Shown in pieces: positions 47,552 to 59,249 of a stretch of 64,000 nt of DNA. The notes below the pieces were generated by a model, which worked only from the letters and a program-made list of their open reading frames with translations, had not been told where the DNA came from and made no database searches. The stretch spans positions 1 to 64,000 of the forward strand of contig PARB01000075.1 in the NCBI GenBank assembly GCA_002709505.1, read 5' to 3'. Every line of letters starts with the position of its first letter. Within the stretch, counting starts at the first letter, position 1. This DNA is from Paracoccaceae bacterium. GTDB taxonomy: Bacteria; Pseudomonadota; Alphaproteobacteria; Rhizobiales; Stappiaceae. Made by a program: the position numbers and the translations under genes.

Positions 47552-49270
47552 GTGATGTCGAAGAGCGATCAGCCCGTCTCCTTTCTCCAGCGCCGTACGG
47601 TGGGGGAGCGTCATGTTCCGCGCGGTCCCTCGACGCGGGCGGTGCGTTCGCGCGTCTATATGGCGATGGCGATGTTTGGCCTCGTCTATCTGGCCATCGG
47701 CGGCCGGCTGGTCATGCTCGGCTTCAGCGAGGAAGCGGAGACCGCCTCCTATATCTCCGCGCAGGACAGCGTCGCCGCCTCGCGGCCCGATCTCCTCGAC
47801 CGCAACGGCCAGATCCTGGCGACCGACATCAAGACCGCCTCGCTCTATGCCGAGCCGCGCAAGATCATCGACGTCGACGAAGCGCTGGAAGGCATCGCCA
47901 GCGTTTTGCCGGAACTCGGCACGGATGCGGTGCGCCGCCGGCTGGCCAGCAATGCGGGTTTCATCTGGCTGAAGCGCGAGCTCACGCCGCGCCAGCGCAC
48001 GAAGCTGCATGACCTCGGCATTCCGGGCATCGGCTTTTTGGAAGAAAACAGCCGTTTCTATCCCGGCGGTCCGACCGCAAGCCACATCGTTGGCTCGGTG
48101 AATGTCGACAACAAGGGCATCTCCGGCATGGAGCTTGCCGTCGACAAGGCCTGGCTCGGGGAACTCCAGGACCTGGGGTTCGCCAGCGACCGCCGGCCGA
48201 TGGAGGGCGTCAGCCTGTCCGTCGACCTGCGCGTCCAGCATGTGGTGCGCGACGAGCTGGCGAAGGCGCTGGACCGCTACAAGGCGATCGCCGGCGTCGG
48301 CATCGTGCTCGATGTCCGGACCGGCGAGGTGATCGGCATGTCGTCGCTGCCCGACTTCGATCCCAACGACCGGGCGCAGGCGCTGGAAAAGAACCGGCTC
48401 AACCGCGCCACCGGCGGCGTGTTCGAGATGGGGTCGGTGTTCAAGGCCTTCACCGTCGCCATGGCGCTCGACAGCGGCAAGGTGACGATGGACGACAGTT
48501 TCGACGCCACCCGCCCCTTGCGCGTCGGCCGGCGCACGATCAACGACTTCCACGGCAAGCGGCGTATTCTCTCGGTCGCGGAGACCTTCATCTATTCGTC
48601 CAACATCGGTACGGCGAAGATGATGCTGGCGGCCGGGGTCGACACCCAGAAGGCCTTCATGGAGCGCATCGGCCTGACCACGCGCACCGAGACGGACCTT
48701 CCGGAGGTGGCGACGCCGCTGCTTCCGCCGAAGTGGAACGAGCTTGCCGCGATGACGATCTCCTTCGGTCACGGCATTTCCGTCACGCCGATGCAGACGG
48801 CGGTGGCGACTGCCGCGCTCGTCAACGGCGGCCGTCTCATTCCCCCGACGTTCACGCCGCGCAGCGAAGCTGAGGCGAACGAGCTTGCCCAGCAGGTGAT
48901 CGATCCCAGGACCAGCGAGATCATGCGCTACCTGTTCCGGCTCAACGTGCTGAGCGGATCGGGGCGCCGGGCCGAGGTTCCGGGCTATGTGGTCGGCGGC
49001 AAGACCGGCACGGCGGAGAAGATCGAGAACGGCCGCTATGTGTCCGACAAGCGCCGCAACTCCTTCCTCTCGGCCTTCCCGATGGACGATCCGCGCTACG
49101 TCGTGCTGGTGGTGCTCGACGAGCCCAAACCCGAACGCGAGGGCATCGGCGCCACCGCCGGCCTGAACACCGCGCCCACCACATCCGCCATCATTCGCAG
49201 AATTGCCCCCACGCTGGGTGTTTTGCCCAAATTCGGAGATAAGACGGAGACCGTTTCAATCGCCTACTGA
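47552..49270 (+). CDS. ftsI: Peptidoglycan D,D-transpeptidase FtsI (PBP3)
   Basis: SRPDLLDRNGQILATDI, EMGSVFKAFT (SxxK), YSSNIGT (SxN), VGGKTGTAEK (KTGT); GTG 47552 or ATG 47555 start. Confidence 0.96.
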   Translation: MMSKSDQPVSFLQRRTVGERHVPRGPSTRAVRSRVYMAMAMFGLVYLAIGGRLVMLGFSEEAETASYISAQDSVAASRPDLLDRNGQILATDIKTASLYAEPRKIIDVDEALEGIASVLPELGTDAVRRRLASNAGFIWLKRELTPRQRTKLHDLGIPGIGFLEENSRFYPGGPTASHIVGSVNVDNKGISGMELAVDKAWLGELQDLGFASDRRPMEGVSLSVDLRVQHVVRDELAKALDRYKAIAGVGIVLDVRTGEVIGMSSLPDFDPNDRAQALEKNRLNRATGGVFEMGSVFKAFTVAMALDSGKVTMDDSFDATRPLRVGRRTINDFHGKRRILSVAETFIYSSNIGTAKMMLAAGVDTQKAFMERIGLTTRTETDLPEVATPLLPPKWNELAAMTISFGHGISVTPMQTAVATAALVNGGRLIPPTFTPRSEAEANELAQQVIDPRTSEIMRYLFRLNVLSGSGRRAEVPGYVVGGKTGTAEKIENGRYVSDKRRNSFLSAFPMDDPRYVVLVVLDEPKPEREGIGATAGLNTAPTTSAIIRRIAPTLGVLPKFGDKTETVSIAY

Positions 49271-49352: not shown

Positions 49353-52300
49353 ATGCTGCTCAAGGACCTTGCCGGCGAACAGGTGCTCGCCGCACCCGAG
49401 TTCGAAACCGAAATCGCCGGATTGTCCGCCGACAGCCGAACGGTCTCGGACGGATTTCTTTTCGCAGCCCTCAAGGGCGCGACCAGCGACGGGACCCGCT
49501 TCATCGAGGATGCGCGCGCCGCCGGCGCAAGTGCGGTCCTCGTCGGCCAGGACGTTTCCGCGCAGACGCTGGAAAGCCTCGGCGACGGATTTCCTGTCAT
49601 CGTCAGCGACGACCCGCGCCGCACGCTGGCGCTGATGGCGGCGCGCTTCCATGCCGACCAGCCTGAAACCGTTGTCGCTGTCACCGGAACAAGCGGCAAG
49701 ACGTCGGTTGCCGTCTTTGCGCGGCAGATCTTTGCTGCCGCTGGCCACAAGGCGGCCAGTCTCGGCACGATCGGAACGGTGACGAGCGCCGGCGCGAATT
49801 ACGGCGGTCTGACGACGCCCGATCCTGTCTCGCTTCACCAGACGCTGGCGCGGCTTGCCCATGACGGCATCACCCATGCCGCGCTGGAGGCCTCCAGCCA
49901 CGGGCTCGACCAGCGCCGGCTCGACGGCGTGCGCCTCGCGGCTGCCGGCTTCACCAATCTCGGCCGGGACCATCTCGACTATCACGCAGACGTCGAGGAC
50001 TATCTCGCCGCCAAGCTGCGCCTCTTCGACACGCTCCTTCCGGAAGGCAAGCCCGTCGTTCTGGAGCCGGACGCGCCCTATGCCGACCGGGTGATGGCGG
50101 TTGCGCGCGACCGCGGCCTTCCACTTTTCACCGTCGGAGACGGCGGCAAAGATCTCGCCCTCAAGGACATTCGCCACGACGGGTTCATGCAGGTGCTCAG
50201 TCTCGAGACCGAGGACGGGCCGCGCGAGATCCGTCTGCCGCTCGCCGGCAGATTCCAGGTCTCCAATGCACTGATCGCGGCGGGTCTGGCGATTGCCGGC
50301 GGCGTGAAGACCGACGCGGCGCTCGAGGCGCTGGAAAGCCTTGAAGGCGCGCCCGGACGGCTTGAGCTCGTCGGCGAGAGCGACGACGGGGCGCTCGTCT
50401 TCGTCGACTACGCACATAAGCCGGATGCGCTCGACACCGCTCTTGCGGCGCTTCGCCCCTTCACCAAGGGGCGGCTGATCGTCGTCTTCGGCGCGGGCGG
50501 CGACCGGGATGCCGGCAAGCGCCCGCTGATGGGCGCGGCCGCCGCGCGTCAGGCGGACGTGGTGATCGTCACCGACGACAACCCGCGCAGCGAGGATCCG
50601 GCCGCGATCCGCGGCGCGATCCTTGAGGCGGCCCCCGGCGCGCTGGAAATCGGCGACCGACGCGATGCGATCGAGGCGGCTGTCGGCATGTTGCAGGAAG
50701 GCGATGTGCTGTGCATCGCCGGCAAAGGCCATGAGCCGGGGCAGATCGTCGGCGACGAGGTGCTGCCCTTTTCCGACCATCAGGTCGCGCGCACAGCCCT
50801 TGCCGCCATTGCCGAGAGCGACCTGTTCGCCGCCTCCGAAGACGATGCCGGAGGGTTCGAACTGGATCTTGCAACCCTTCTGGAGGACGAGGCGCCGGCC
50901 GCGGACCAAGCCGCTTCGGCAGGGGATACGCCGGAGGCGGACGAGGCGGGGGAAGACACACCGGACGCGGATGGCGTGTCGCTGGACGACCAACTGGCTG
51001 CTGCCCTTCTCGATGAGCTGGGCGGCGATGCCGGCCGGAGCGATGCCGAAGCGGCCGAGGACGGTGCGAACACCGACGACGATATTCTTGCGGACGTCAG
51101 CGAAGGGGCGGAACAGGTCGACGCAGCGGCAAATCTCGATCCCGATGCTGGCGAAGGCGAAGACGACGCGTTGTTTGCCGATGGCGACGACGCGGTCGTG
51201 GCCGACGCGCTGACGACGGACGGCGAAGACGACATCGACACTACCATCGAAGACGCCGGCGAACCGGATCAGGCGGAAGCCGAGGCTAAGGCCGAGGCGG
51301 ATGAAACCGATGTCTCCGCGACCCTTGCCGATGAGACCGAGGACGGGGAAGCGGACGCGGACGAAGCGGACCTTCGCGAGGGGGACATTGACGCTCCTGC
51401 CAAGCCGGCCGACGCCGACGCGGATGATGCCTCCGGGGAAAATGCCGAGGAAGAGCCCGACGCGTCGCGTGATTTCGCGGATGCGGTGCTCCCCGCGGCT
51501 GCTGCCGCGGCCGCGGCTGCCGTTGCCAAGGGGAGCGAGCCGCAGACGTTCGAACCTCTTCCCGAGCCCGACGACAGTCGTCCGCTTTGGACGCTGGACG
51601 AGATGGTCGCGGCGACCGGCGGCAGGGTCGAGGGCGTGGAAGCCGGCGCGGCGATTTCCGGCCTCTCCATCGACAGCCGCACGATCCAGCCGGGCGAGGC
51701 GTTCGTTGCCATTGCCGGCGAGCGGTTCGACGGTCACGATTTTGCCGGCGCCGCCCTTGAGGCCGGTGCGGCTCTTGCCCTCGTGTCCGAGGCCCGGCGT
51801 GCCGACCTGCCCAAGGACGGGCGCTATCTGATCGTCGCGGACGCGCTTGAGGGCTTGCGCGATCTGGCGCGGGCATCGCGGGCGCGCAGCCGGGCGCGGA
51901 TCGTCGCCGTCACCGGCTCGGTCGGCAAGACCAGCACCAAGGACATGCTGAAACTGGCGCTGGATGCCTCCGGCAAGACCCATGCGCCCGTCGCCTCCTT
52001 CAACAATCACTGGGGCGTGCCGCTGACGCTGGCGCGCATGCCGGCGGATGCCGCTTTCGGCGTCTTCGAGATCGGCATGAACCATGCCGGCGAGATCACG
52101 CCGCTGGTCCAGATGGTGCGCCCGCATGTCGCCGTCATCACCACGGTCGCGGCGGTTCATCTGGAGTTCTTCGGCTCCGTGGAGCGGATCGCCCAGGCCA
52201 AGGGCGAGATCTTTCTCGGGCTGGAGCCGGGCGGGCTTGCGCTTCTCAACCGCGACAACGACCAGTTCGATCTCCTGACCTATCTGGCAAAGACCGCCGG

Positions 52301-53003
52301 CGTGCGCCGTATCGCCACTTTCGGGCGCGAGGGGCCGGCCGATGCCCAGGCGGAACGCGTGTCCGCGCAGGTCGCATGCAGCTCGATTTCCGGCCATATC
52401 TTCGACCAGCCGATCACCTACAAGGTCGGTGCGCCGGGTCAGCATCTGGTCACCAACAGTCTCGCGGTGCTCGCGGCCGTTGCGGAGCTTGGCGGCGATC
52501 TGGCGCTTGCCGGTCTGGCGCTTGCGAATTTCCGCGCGCCCAAGGGCCGCGGCGCGCAGATCGCCCTGCGATTGCCGGAAGGCTCGGCCACGGTGATCGA
52601 CGAAAGCTACAATGCCAATCCCGCCTCCGTGCGCGCGGCGCTTTCCCTCCTGAAGGAAACACCGATCTCGCGGCCAGGGCGGCGCATTGCCGTGCTGGGC
52701 GACATGCTCGAGCTCGGCGAGGCGGAAGGCCGGCTGCATGCGGATCTCATCGGACCGGTCACGGAAAGCGAGGCGGACCTCGTCTATTGCGTCGGCGAAC
52801 GCATGCACGAGCTCTGGGACCTCTTGCCGAAGCACCTGCGCGGCGCCTATTCCGAAGAGGCGGCGAGCCTGAGGCCGCTGCTTCTGGAAGACGTGCGCCC
52901 CGGCGACGTCATCATGATCAAGGGATCTCTCGGCACCCGGATGGGGCCGCTGGTCGAGGCGCTGAAGCGCGAATTTCCCGTCGAGGACGACGGAGCCGAA
53001 TAG
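49353..53003 (+). CDS. murE-murF: Fused MurE-MurF: UDP-MurNAc-tripeptide synthetase / UDP-MurNAc-tripeptide--D-Ala-D-Ala ligase with long acidic linker
   Basis: One continuous ORF. MurE motifs [42 protein letters not shown] (meso-DAP motif), [15 protein letters not shown]-rich linker about 50827-51577; MurF motifs [75 protein letters not shown]. Confidence 0.95.
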
Positions 53004-53011
53004 GACGCCCG

Positions 53012-54097
53012 ATGCTGTATTTTCTCGTCGAATTCGCCGACCAGTTCTCCGCGCTGAACGTGTTCCGCTACATCACGTTCCGCACCGGCGGCGCGATCAT
53101 GACGGCGCTGCTGTTCATCTTCCTGTTCGGACCGATGATCATCAACTCGCTGCGCACCCGCCAGGGGCATGGCCAGCCGATCCGCGCCGACGGGCCGCAG
53201 AGCCATCTGCTGACCAAGAAGGGCACGCCGACGATGGGCGGCCTGATGATCCTGTCGGGCATGATCGTGGCGACCCTGCTCTGGGCCAATCTGCTCAATC
53301 CCTATACCTGGATCGTGCTGGGCGTGACCGTCGGCTTCGGCCTCATCGGCTTCTACGACGACTTCCTGAAGGTCGCCAAGGCCTCGCACAAGGGGTTCAG
53401 CGGGCGCATGCGCCTCGGTCTGGAATTCCTGATCGCCGGCACTGCCGCCTGGTGCGTCACCTTTCTGGAAGGCGATGTCTACGGCACCTCCATCGGGTTC
53501 CCGTTCTTCAAGGACCTGGCGATCAATCTCGGGATCTTCTTCATTCCGTTTGCGGCCTTCGTCGTCGTCGGTGCGGGCAACGCGGTCAATCTGACCGACG
53601 GGCTGGACGGGTTGGCCATTGTGCCCGTGATGATCGCCTCCGCCTCCTTCGGCCTGATCGCCTATCTCACCGGCAACGCGGTGTTCTCCGACTACCTGCA
53701 GATCCATCACGTGGCGGGCGCGGGCGAACTGGCGGTGCTGTGCGGCGCGGTGATCGGGGCGGGGCTCGGCTTCCTGTGGTTCAACGCGCCGCCGGCGGCA
53801 ATCTTCATGGGCGACACCGGGTCGCTTGCGCTCGGCGGCATGCTGGGCGCCATCGCGGTCGCAACCAAGCACGAGATCGTGCTGGCAATCATCGGCGGTC
53901 TCTTCGTGCTGGAGGCCGTGTCGGTGATCGTGCAGGTCGCCTCCTTCAAGCTGACGGGCAAGCGCGTCTTCAAAATGGCGCCGATCCACCATCATTTCGA
54001 GCATCTCGGCTGGACCGAAAGCCAGGTCGTGATCCGCTTCTGGATCATCGCCGTCGTGCTGGCGCTGGTCGGGCTGGCCACGCTGAAGCTGAGGTGA
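53012..54097 (+). CDS. mraY: Phospho-N-acetylmuramoyl-pentapeptide-transferase
   Basis: [64 protein letters not shown]. Confidence 0.97.
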
Positions 54098-54101
54098 GGA
54101 C

Positions 54102-55511
54102 ATGATCTCCGCAACCTCCTTCGCGGATCGCGATGTCGCCCTGTTCGGGCTCGGCGCCTCTGGCCTGTCGGCGGCGCATGCGCTCAAGTCCGGCGGCGCG
54201 CGCGTGCACGCCTTCGACGACATGCCCGAACGCCGCCAGACGGCGATTTCGTCCGGCATCCCGGTTGTCGACCTGAAATCGGCGAACTGGTCGGTGTTCG
54301 ACGCGCTGGTGCTTGCGCCGGGGGTGCCGCTCACCCATCCGACGCCGCACTGGAGCGTCAATCTTGCCCGCCAGCAGGGCATTCCGGTGATCGGCGACAT
54401 CGAGCTGTTCTGCCGGGAGCGCCAGACGCATGCGCCCGACGCGCCCTTCGTGGCGATCACCGGCACCAACGGCAAGTCGACCACCACGGCCCTGATCAGC
54501 CATTGCCTGGCCCATGCGGGGCATGACGTGGCGATGGGCGGCAACATCGGCGTTCCGATCCTCGACCTGATGCCGCCGGCGCGCGGCCGGGTTCATGTGA
54601 TCGAATGCTCCTCCTACCAGATCGATCTGGCGCCGAGCCTCGACCCGTCCATCGGGATCTTGCTGAACATCACCCCGGACCATCTCGACCGTCACGGCTC
54701 GCTTGAGCACTATGCCGAGGTCAAGGAACGGCTGATAGCCAAGAGCAGGCTTGCGGTCGTCGGGATCGACGACGGCCTGAGCGCTGCAATCGCGGACCGG
54801 GCGGAACAGGCGGGCGTCGAAACCTTGCGGCTGTGCGTGCGTCATCCGGTGACGAACGGGGTCTATGCCGAGGGCAGCAAGCTCTATGTTGCCGAGGACG
54901 GGGCGCAGCGCGAACTCTACGATCTGGCGCCGGTGACCTCGCTGCGCGGCGCGCATAATGCGCAGAACGCGGCCGCCGCCGTTGCCGTCTGCCGGGCGCT
55001 CGGGCTCACCGACAAGGCGATCCATGCCGGGCTCGCCAGTTTCCCGGGCCTTGCGCATCGCATGCAGGTGGTGGCGCGCGACGGGCAGGTGCTCTTCGTC
55101 AACGACAGCAAGGCGACCAACGCCGATGCCGCCGAGCGGGCGCTCACCAGCTTCGAACGCATCCACTGGATCGCCGGCGGCCGCGCCAAGGCCGGCGGCA
55201 TCGCATCGCTTGCGCCGCATTTCCCCCGAATCGCAAAAACGTATCTGATCGGCGAGGCGGCGGAGGATTTTGCCGGCGTGCTCGAAGGCCATGTTCCCTA
55301 CGAGCGCTCGGGAACGCTGCAGGCGGCGGTCGAGGCTGCGGCGCGGGATGCAGCTGCGGATGCACGCGCGCATGGCGGAGAAGCGGTGGTGCTGCTGTCG
55401 CCGGCCTGTTCGTCCTTCGACCAGTTCCCGGATTTCGAGGTCCGCGGGCGCGCCTTCGTCGAGGCCGTGCGCCGCATTCTGCCGCAGGCGAACGAACAGG
55501 AGACCGTGTGA
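54102..55511 (+). CDS. murD: UDP-N-acetylmuramoylalanine--D-glutamate ligase
   Basis: [83 protein letters not shown]. Confidence 0.96.
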
Positions 55512-56676: not shown

Positions 56677-57822
56677 ATGGCATCGACCTTTCTTCTCACC
56701 GCTGGGGGAACCGGCGGCCATCTGTTCCCGGCCCAGGCGCTTGCCGCCGAACTGATCCGGCGCGGCCATGTGGTGGAGCTTGCGACAGACCAGCGCGTCG
56801 GTGCCTATGGCGCGGATTTTCCGGCCCGCAAGGTGCATGTGATCTCGTCTGCAACGCTTGCCGGACGCAATCCGGTCGCGCTGGCGCGCACCGCCTGGCG
56901 GCTGGCGCGTGGCACGCTGCAGGCGCGCGGCGTGATCCGGCGACTGAAGCCCGATGCGGTGATCGGCTTCGGCGGCTATCCGACGTTTCCGCCGATGTTC
57001 GCGGCGTTTCTCGCCGGCGTTCCGAGCGTGCTGCACGAGGCCAATGCGGTGATGGGGCGCGCCAACCGCATGTTGGCCGGCCGGGTCAGCGCCATCGCCA
57101 CCAGCTTTCCGCTCGTCGGCGAGGCGGCCGGCGCCCATCCGCAAAAGACACGCCAGACCGGCAACCCGGTGCGCGACGCGGTGATCGCCGCATCCGAAAC
57201 CCCCTATGCCGTGCCGCAGGCCGACGGGCCGTTCTCGCTTCTGGTCTTCGGCGGATCGCAAGGCGCGCGGTTCTTCTCCGATTGCCTGCCTCCGGCACTG
57301 GAGTGCCTGCCGGCGGAAACGCGGGCACGGATCCGCCTCGTGCAGCAGTGCCGGCCCGAGGACATGGACCGCGTGCGGGCCGCCTTCGAACGAATTGGAA
57401 TCGCTGCCGAAATCGCGCCGTTTTTCTCCGATATGGCTGAGAGAATCGCGGCGTCGCATCTGGTGGTCTGCCGCTCCGGCGCCTCAAGCGTCAGCGAGCT
57501 TTCGGTGATCGGCCGACCGTCCGTCCTGGTGCCGCTGCCGCATGCGCTCGACAACGACCAGGGGCGCAACGCCGACATTCTTGCCCGCGCGGGCGGCGCC
57601 TGGCCGGTCGCGCAATCCGAACTCGATCCGGCACGCCTTGCCGCCTTGCTCGACGAGCTGATGGCGGCACCGGAGCGCCTCGCCGAGGCGGCGGACTGCG
57701 CCAAGCGCGCCGGCCGTCCCGATGCGGTGCGCCGTCTTGCCGATCTCGCCGAACACATTGCCTCCGGTGCGCCGCTTGGCGCGCTGGACGCGCAGGAAAC
57801 ACCATCAGGAGACGCATCATGA
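56677..57822 (+). CDS. murG: UDP-GlcNAc--lipid I GlcNAc transferase
   Basis: [104 protein letters not shown]. Confidence 0.96.
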
Positions 57823-59249
57823 AGATGCCCCAGGATATCGGTCCGGTTCACTTCATCGGCATCGGCGGCATCGGCATGAGCGGCATCGCCGAAGTGCTGC
57901 ACACGCTCGGCTACACCGTTCAGGGATCCGATCTGTCGGAAAGCGCCAACGTCAAGCGGCTGCGCGAGAAGGGCATCGCGGTGAAGGTCGGCCATGCCGC
58001 GGAGAACCTCGGCCAGGCCCGCGTCGTCGTGGTGTCCTCCGCGATCCGGCGCGACAATCCCGAACTGACGGCGGCGCGCAACAAGCTGCTGCCGGTCGTG
58101 CGGCGCGCGGAGATGCTCGCCGAGCTGATGCGCTTCAAGCAGGCGATCGCCATCGGCGGCACCCATGGCAAGACGACGACGACCTCGATCATCGCGGCAC
58201 TTCTGGATGCCGGCGGGCTCGACCCGACGGTGATCAACGGCGGCATCATCAACGCCTATGGCACCAACGCGCGCATGGGCAAGGGCGACTGGATGGTGGT
58301 GGAGGCCGACGAGTCCGACGGCACCTTCGTCAAGCTGCCGGCGGACGTCGCGGTGGTGACCAACATCGATCCCGAGCATCTCGATCACTATGGCGATTTC
58401 GACGGCGTGCGCTCCGCCTTCCACCAGTTCGTGGAGAATGTGCCCTTCTACGGCTTCGCCGTGATGTGTCTCGACCATCCGGAGGTCCAGGCGATGGTCG
58501 GCCGCATCGAGGACCGGCAGGTCATCACCTATGGCCAGAACCGTCAGGCCGACGTGCGCTTCTTCGATCTCGCGACCCATGGCGTGAATTCCATCTTCTC
58601 CGTGGAGATGCGCGACCGGCTGAGCGGCACCAGCGAGGTGATCGAAAGCCTGACGCTGCCGATGCCGGGGCTTCACAACGTGTCCAACGCGGTCGCTGCC
58701 GTCGCTGTCGCCTGGAAGCTCGGCATCGAGCCGGCCCGCATCCGCCAGGGGCTGGCGAGCTTCGGCGGCGTGAAGCGGCGCTTCACCCACACCGGCAATG
58801 CCGGCGGCATCGATGTCTTCGACGACTACGCCCATCACCCCGTGGAGATCCGCGCCGTGCTGTCGGCGGCGCGCGCCGTTGCCTCCGGCGAGGTCATCGC
58901 CGTGGTGCAGCCGCATCGCTATTCGCGGCTGGAAAGCCTGCTCGACGAATTCTCCAGCTGCTTCAACGACGCCGACCATGTGATCTGTGCGCCTGTCTAT
59001 GCCGCCGGCGAGCAGCCGCGCGAGGGGATCGATCACATCGCGCTTGCCAACGGCATCCGCGCCAGCGGTCACCGCAACGTGCATGCGATCGACGGTGAGA
59101 GCGACCTTGCCGGATGCATCGCCGGGATCGCCTCGCCGGGCGACTATGTCGTGTGTCTTGGTGCCGGCAGCATCTCGCAATGGGCGCAGGTTCTTCCCGA
59201 GGCGCTCGCACGGGCGCTCGACGAAGCGGCGACCGGTGGGGCCTCATGA
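57819..59249 (+). CDS. murC: UDP-N-acetylmuramate--L-alanine ligase
   Basis: [86 protein letters not shown] overlap with murG. Confidence 0.96.

Follow-up and report, generated by a model that had tools for sequence, protein, structure and literature searches.

Fused Mur ligases are a main genetic argument for the cytoplasmic peptidoglycan enzymes working as a complex, and the MurE-MurF fusion as such is known and frequent. A survey of Mur chimeras by Shirakawa et al. 2023 (PNAS) reportedly includes MurE-MurF forms with and without linkers, which lowers the novelty of the architecture described below. The MurE-MurF protein of Bordetella pertussis is 945 residues long, of which the linker takes up about 20; it carries its two active sites about 35 A apart, draws no apparent catalytic advantage from the fusion and binds MurG (PMC6420597). 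The same paper names Pseudovibrio among the carriers of the fusion, and the text consulted holds no description of the Pseudovibrio linker (PMC6420597). The directly joined MurE-MurF chain in PDB entry 8f5d, where the MurE and MurF matches lie 5 residues apart, appears to belong to this Bordetella-type class. Desulfobulbus and Desulfobacula are bacterial genera. They are listed as archaea carrying the fusion in the Bordetella paper (PMC6420597). Here we describe a MurE-MurF fusion whose new part appears to be a long acidic tether of widely variable length and preserved charge, special to Stappia, Pseudovibrio and one related genus.

In the window (the whole stretch of 64,000 nucleotides analysed), murE and murF form a single open frame (49353-53003, + strand) that starts with ATG, ends with TAG and encodes 1216 residues (Table 1). 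The window covers the central dcw cluster, comprising ftsI, murE-murF, mraY, murD, ftsW, murG, murC, murB, ddl, ftsQ, ftsA and the start of ftsZ, with the gene names assigned from the sequences. The original prediction had described one open reading frame with full MurE and MurF motifs next to separate murC and murD genes; each motif that it named was present, and both of the other ligases indeed have genes of their own. When the genome was searched with the MurEF query, no second murE or murF was found, the sole further match being a weak one to murC (58350-58907). The architecture is that of a MurE-MurF chimera, with both modules in one unbroken frame and no separate genomic copies.

Table 1. 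Coordinates of the fused gene's modules and of neighbouring genes in the window.
Feature	Position	Strand	Evidence
MurE module, residues 1-488	49353..50816	+	NF001124, TIGR01085, invariant motif residues, high pLDDT
Acidic disordered linker, residues 489-738	50817..51566	+	composition, no Pfam match, low pLDDT, dN/dS
MurF module, residues 739-1216, and stop	51567..53003	+	NF010693, TIGR01143, high pLDDT
ftsI (penicillin-binding protein), directly upstream, dcw cluster	47552..49270	+	ORF and sequence
mraY, directly downstream, ATG 9 bp past the murEF stop	53013..54097	+	ORF and sequence
murD, own gene	54102..55511	+	ORF
murC, own gene	57819..59249	+	ORF

Both modules exceeded the curated HMM cut-offs of their families, MurE with 740 against 476 bits (NF001124) and 525 against 257 bits (TIGR01085), MurF with 746 against 544 bits (NF010693) and 489 against 289 bits (TIGR01143). 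The whole protein scored 846 bits, below the cut-off of 1023 bits, with the equivalog model for bifunctional MurE/MurF (NF008896). Judged from its sequence, murEF is predicted to work like the bifunctional MurE/MurF, yet by that model it lies outside NF008896 membership. Across 26 homologues the MurE P-loop (G115-K116-T117), the DNPR residues (D409, N410, P411, R412) and the carbamate lysine K221 were invariant, as were the MurF P-loop (G858-K859-T860), the lysine of AKGEIF (K950) and ESYNANP (E1084-P1090). The carbamate-lysine region of MurE reads AAKLRLF and the diaminopimelate motif DNPR. The MurE module is the predicted UDP-MurNAc-L-Ala-D-Glu:meso-diaminopimelate ligase and the MurF module the predicted UDP-MurNAc-tripeptide:D-Ala-D-Ala ligase.

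Between the modules lies a linker of 250 residues that contains 52 Asp, 33 Glu and 63 Ala, thus 85 acidic against 6 basic residues (Lys/Arg) with a net charge of -79, and zero Trp, Tyr, His, Met and Cys. The acidic low-complexity segment, expected from about 50827 to 51577, was located at 50817-51566 with an Ala run near its C-terminal end. Its identity with a known domain was rejected, as no Pfam family matched even at E = 1, and no sequence resembling it was found elsewhere in the genome. The AlphaFold2 model of residues 1-1200, built with 26 aligned homologues, showed high pLDDT for the MurE and MurF modules, pLDDT below 50 for all of residues 491-732 and about 30 across the linker; the whole-chain pTM of 0.46 is what one expects when a disordered chain connects two bodies that move independently. 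The model and the missing Pfam match both agree with the earlier suggestion that the segment is disordered.

The fusion was present in all genomes of the window's genus Stappia (14/14), of the sister genus g3 (3/3) and of Pseudovibrio (g6, 16/16). The junction was uncut in 31 of these 33 genomes, whereas G004 (Stappia) and G030 (Pseudovibrio) end inside the linker at contig ends. The 31 uncut linkers measured 13-688 residues with a median of 250, and 30 of them exceeded 100 residues. These long linkers span 113-688 residues (271 in Stappia stellulata DSM 5886, L003), and all 30 carry a net charge per residue between -0.18 and -0.39. In linker length and in domain identities L003 agrees with genome G012, which places the genus as Stappia. 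The linker is not a one-off, since its composition is conserved throughout the 33 species, drawn from three genera. A frameshift or assembly error was likewise rejected, as all of these species share the architecture: the fusion occurs in all other genomes of the genus, and the 95%-identical relative G006 has a linker of 249 residues at the same position. A single species, G031 (L140), nested among long-linker relatives, has the fusion with a 13-residue linker, which is either a natural deletion or an ancestral short form. In the remaining genera covered within the family (g2, g4 Pannonibacter, g5 and g7 Roseibium) murE and murF are separate genes, MurE stopping 1-15 residues past the matched domain and MurF beginning with its own Met.

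Outside the family, at least 14 genomes from four other families of the order (f11, f18, f41 and f42; L170-L193) carry verified MurE-MurF fusions in which the matched domains lie only about 5-24 residues apart and the junction has no acidic bias, and these short-junction fusions apparently arose repeatedly and independently. A direct MurE-MurF fusion was also present in a Rhizobiaceae metagenome-assembled locus (L030). Apart from one candidate of the class sample (G642, open frame 1029), the matches listed for the class and phylum samples included no other long-linker fusion. In other families, G309, G247, G096 and G179 have open frames of 1099-1637 codons at MurF, which were rejected as chance open frames upstream of MurE or MurF and are not long linkers. 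Two MurF-like domains had other partners: in L195 (G417) a long N-terminal region other than MurE is attached to the domain, and in L194 (G359) the domain is flanked by an N-terminal region that gave no match to MurE and by a C-terminal one that by eye resembles CapA. So far as seen, the long acidic linker is a trait of Stappiaceae, namely of Stappia, Pseudovibrio and g3.

Perfect or near-perfect arrays of 6-bp repeats occur in several of the linkers, where they translate as (EA)n, (EP)n or (DA)n. For instance, G010 has 19 and G008 12 copies, G013 has 21 copies against 9.5 in its sister G003, G028 and G037 have 13 against 4.5 in G026 and G035, and G029 has two arrays of 14 and 94 copies; the window's own linker has no strong 6-bp array at present. 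Read in the alternative frames, the array DNA would give Arg-Ser, Lys-Pro or Pro-Ser pairs. As the slippage unit is 6 bp the frame is never broken, and the length of the linker probably changes in part through such in-frame repeats. The larger array of G029, a genome of the Pseudovibrio group, is a perfect 562-bp run of CCGAAG within murEF (L168:4139-4700) and translates as (EA)n over about 187 residues. For a bacterial gene expected to be essential, a pure repeat of this length is unusual, and given its purity the array may be an assembly effect.

Such arrays, together with the large variation in length, could speak for a mostly neutral by-product, in which the murE stop was lost and slippage and relaxed selection inflated a junction that needs only to be soluble and unfolded. 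The repeated gene fusion elsewhere in the order fits this account, and so does the linker dN/dS, which was 0.10-0.43 against 0.03-0.10 in the enzyme modules (12 pairwise comparisons) and 0.30-0.43 for the window linker against three close relatives. These values are nonetheless well below 1, and they imply translation of the linker under a constraint, if a loose one. Furthermore, in seven close pairs we counted 54 acid-to-acid changes where 15-23 were expected, 31 acid-to-other changes instead of 66-67 and 4 acid-to-basic changes instead of 7-13. This test covered 215 single-base amino-acid differences, with the expectation taken from the codons without selection at transition/transversion weights of 1-3, and its pairs overlap in species, so that the counts are not fully independent. 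Exchange between Asp and Glu is generally mild and tolerated in most proteins. The low dN/dS and an acidity preserved more than expected indicate that the charge is under selection; the substitution test itself points to a constraint on charge and is not evidence of what the charge is for. With acidity kept in 30/30 linkers above 100 residues, while the other verified fusions of the order are short and lack acidic bias, we regard a neutral origin of the tether as quite unlikely.

The original prediction also proposed a scaffold or localisation role for the tether. On such a view the linker may be a specific element for docking or localisation, with short motifs embedded in the acidic chain through which it would bind a basic member of the Mur/divisome complex, e.g. 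MurG. Patches that could serve this purpose exist within subclades: SDLF..A.ED opens the linker of most Stappia, and the main Pseudovibrio group (L113-L119, L136, L142) has, immediately ahead of MurF, a strongly conserved stretch, SAIDKPEWTIVPHINLLDPEIKSEYERQMIELP, that is about 35-40 residues long. The binding of MurG by the Bordetella protein (PMC6420597) is also consistent with docking. On the other hand, a search for ungapped motifs common to 14 representative linkers gave none clearly beyond shuffled controls, the score at width 16 equalling that of the best shuffle and being carried by the Stappia linker start, and a motif common to all linkers was rejected. Enrichment of hydrophobic clusters was likewise rejected as a general property, since clustering was not above shuffles in most linkers. 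The missing cross-clade motif and the natural 13-residue version in G031 argue against an essential sequence-specific docking site, and we consider docking as the purpose of the linker unlikely.

Long disordered segments are easy targets for proteases, and murEF might act as a polyprotein whose linker is cut by a cytoplasmic protease, or MurF might also be made from an internal start, either way giving separate enzymes. In the main Pseudovibrio group a conserved ATG lies 4-5 codons before MurF, with the conserved block, and could be a candidate site of internal MurF initiation. In Stappia, by contrast, no conserved plausible internal MurF start was found. In the window the nearest GTG ahead of MurF is 27 codons away, and G006 lacks it. 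Around the linker end the one start codon conserved in the genus is an ATG that falls 12 codons into MurF and has no ribosome-binding sequence that can be recognised. The last 40 linker codons of G006 and of G031 hold no start candidate at all. Release of separate enzymes seems improbable, more so than either of the preceding alternatives.

We favour as the probable explanation a bifunctional enzyme whose two independent catalytic units sit on a long flexible acidic tether, with selection acting on charge and disorder and not on exact sequence or length. The tether would secure 1:1 production of MurE and MurF and prevent the two consecutive enzymes from moving further apart than about 10-20 nm, and mutual charge repulsion would keep it extended, soluble and non-sticky. 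Each unit would still be mobile and able to dock to other Mur proteins, and the length of the tether would drift, partly through slippage of the in-frame 6-bp repeats. By a polymer estimate, which is not a measurement, the ends of a 250-residue chain lie about 9-20 nm apart, and the effective concentration of the two modules with respect to each other is very roughly 0.1-0.8 mM; with 688 residues it is still about 0.01-0.2 mM. On this estimate the modules would be kept together at 1:1 despite the wide change in length. Two observations stand against the tethered bifunctional enzyme: the 13-residue linker of G031, a species that manages with the fusion but no long tether, and the life of Roseibium and Pannonibacter without fusion or tether.

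Channelling of UDP-MurNAc-tripeptide between the active sites, suggested in the original prediction, found no support. UDP-MurNAc-tripeptide and ATP are anionic, which makes electrostatic channelling along the tether unlikely: the intermediate would be repelled by a linker of charge -79, and lengths of 113-688 residues (13 once) provide no fixed geometry. Moreover, even the short-linker fusion of Bordetella, with its sites about 35 A apart, shows no apparent catalytic advantage (PMC6420597).

In the MurE+MurF tree, the unfused Roseibium/Pannonibacter group separates Stappia and g3 from Pseudovibrio, and a single clade of all fusions was rejected (AU p = 0.003). The tree of the neighbouring FtsI+MraY also placed Stappia+g3 and Pseudovibrio apart, with a single group not rejected (p = 0.37). 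The genes may have been fused twice, or fused once and split again in the Roseibium/Pannonibacter line; the two histories are equally parsimonious. It is conceivable, though we put this forward tentatively and think it doubtful, that Stappia (with g3) and Pseudovibrio fused the genes independently and each built a long acidic tether. Its charge would then be a device that selection arrived at convergently in cytoplasmic peptidoglycan synthesis, and its length would be adjustable by frame-safe 6-bp slippage. The locus also exemplifies an expectedly essential gene that changes length through repeats which never break the frame, while selection keeps its charge. With linkers of 13-688 residues and unfused sister genera, the clade is a natural series in which one can ask whether the fusion offers fixed docking, mere proximity or neither.

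Compared with known systems, the window protein resembles Bordetella pertussis MurE-MurF in being a single chain with MurE followed by MurF at the same place of the dcw cluster, and both activities are expected. The junction of the Bordetella protein, rightly described in the original prediction as much shorter, has about 20 residues (PMC6420597), in contrast to 250 acidic residues here. The fusions in f11, f18, f41 and f42 share the in-frame joining at the same gene boundary and differ in their short, non-acidic junctions. Pseudovibrio, which also belongs to Stappiaceae, has fused genes with acidic linkers over the full range of lengths, although the linker sequences have no clear similarity between the genera. 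Alphaproteobacterial FtsZ has acidic disordered linkers as well. The murEF tether would work alike: in both cases a protein of the cell wall or of division carries a linker that is long, charged and disordered and varies in length. The protein, the position and the partners are different, and homology is not claimed.
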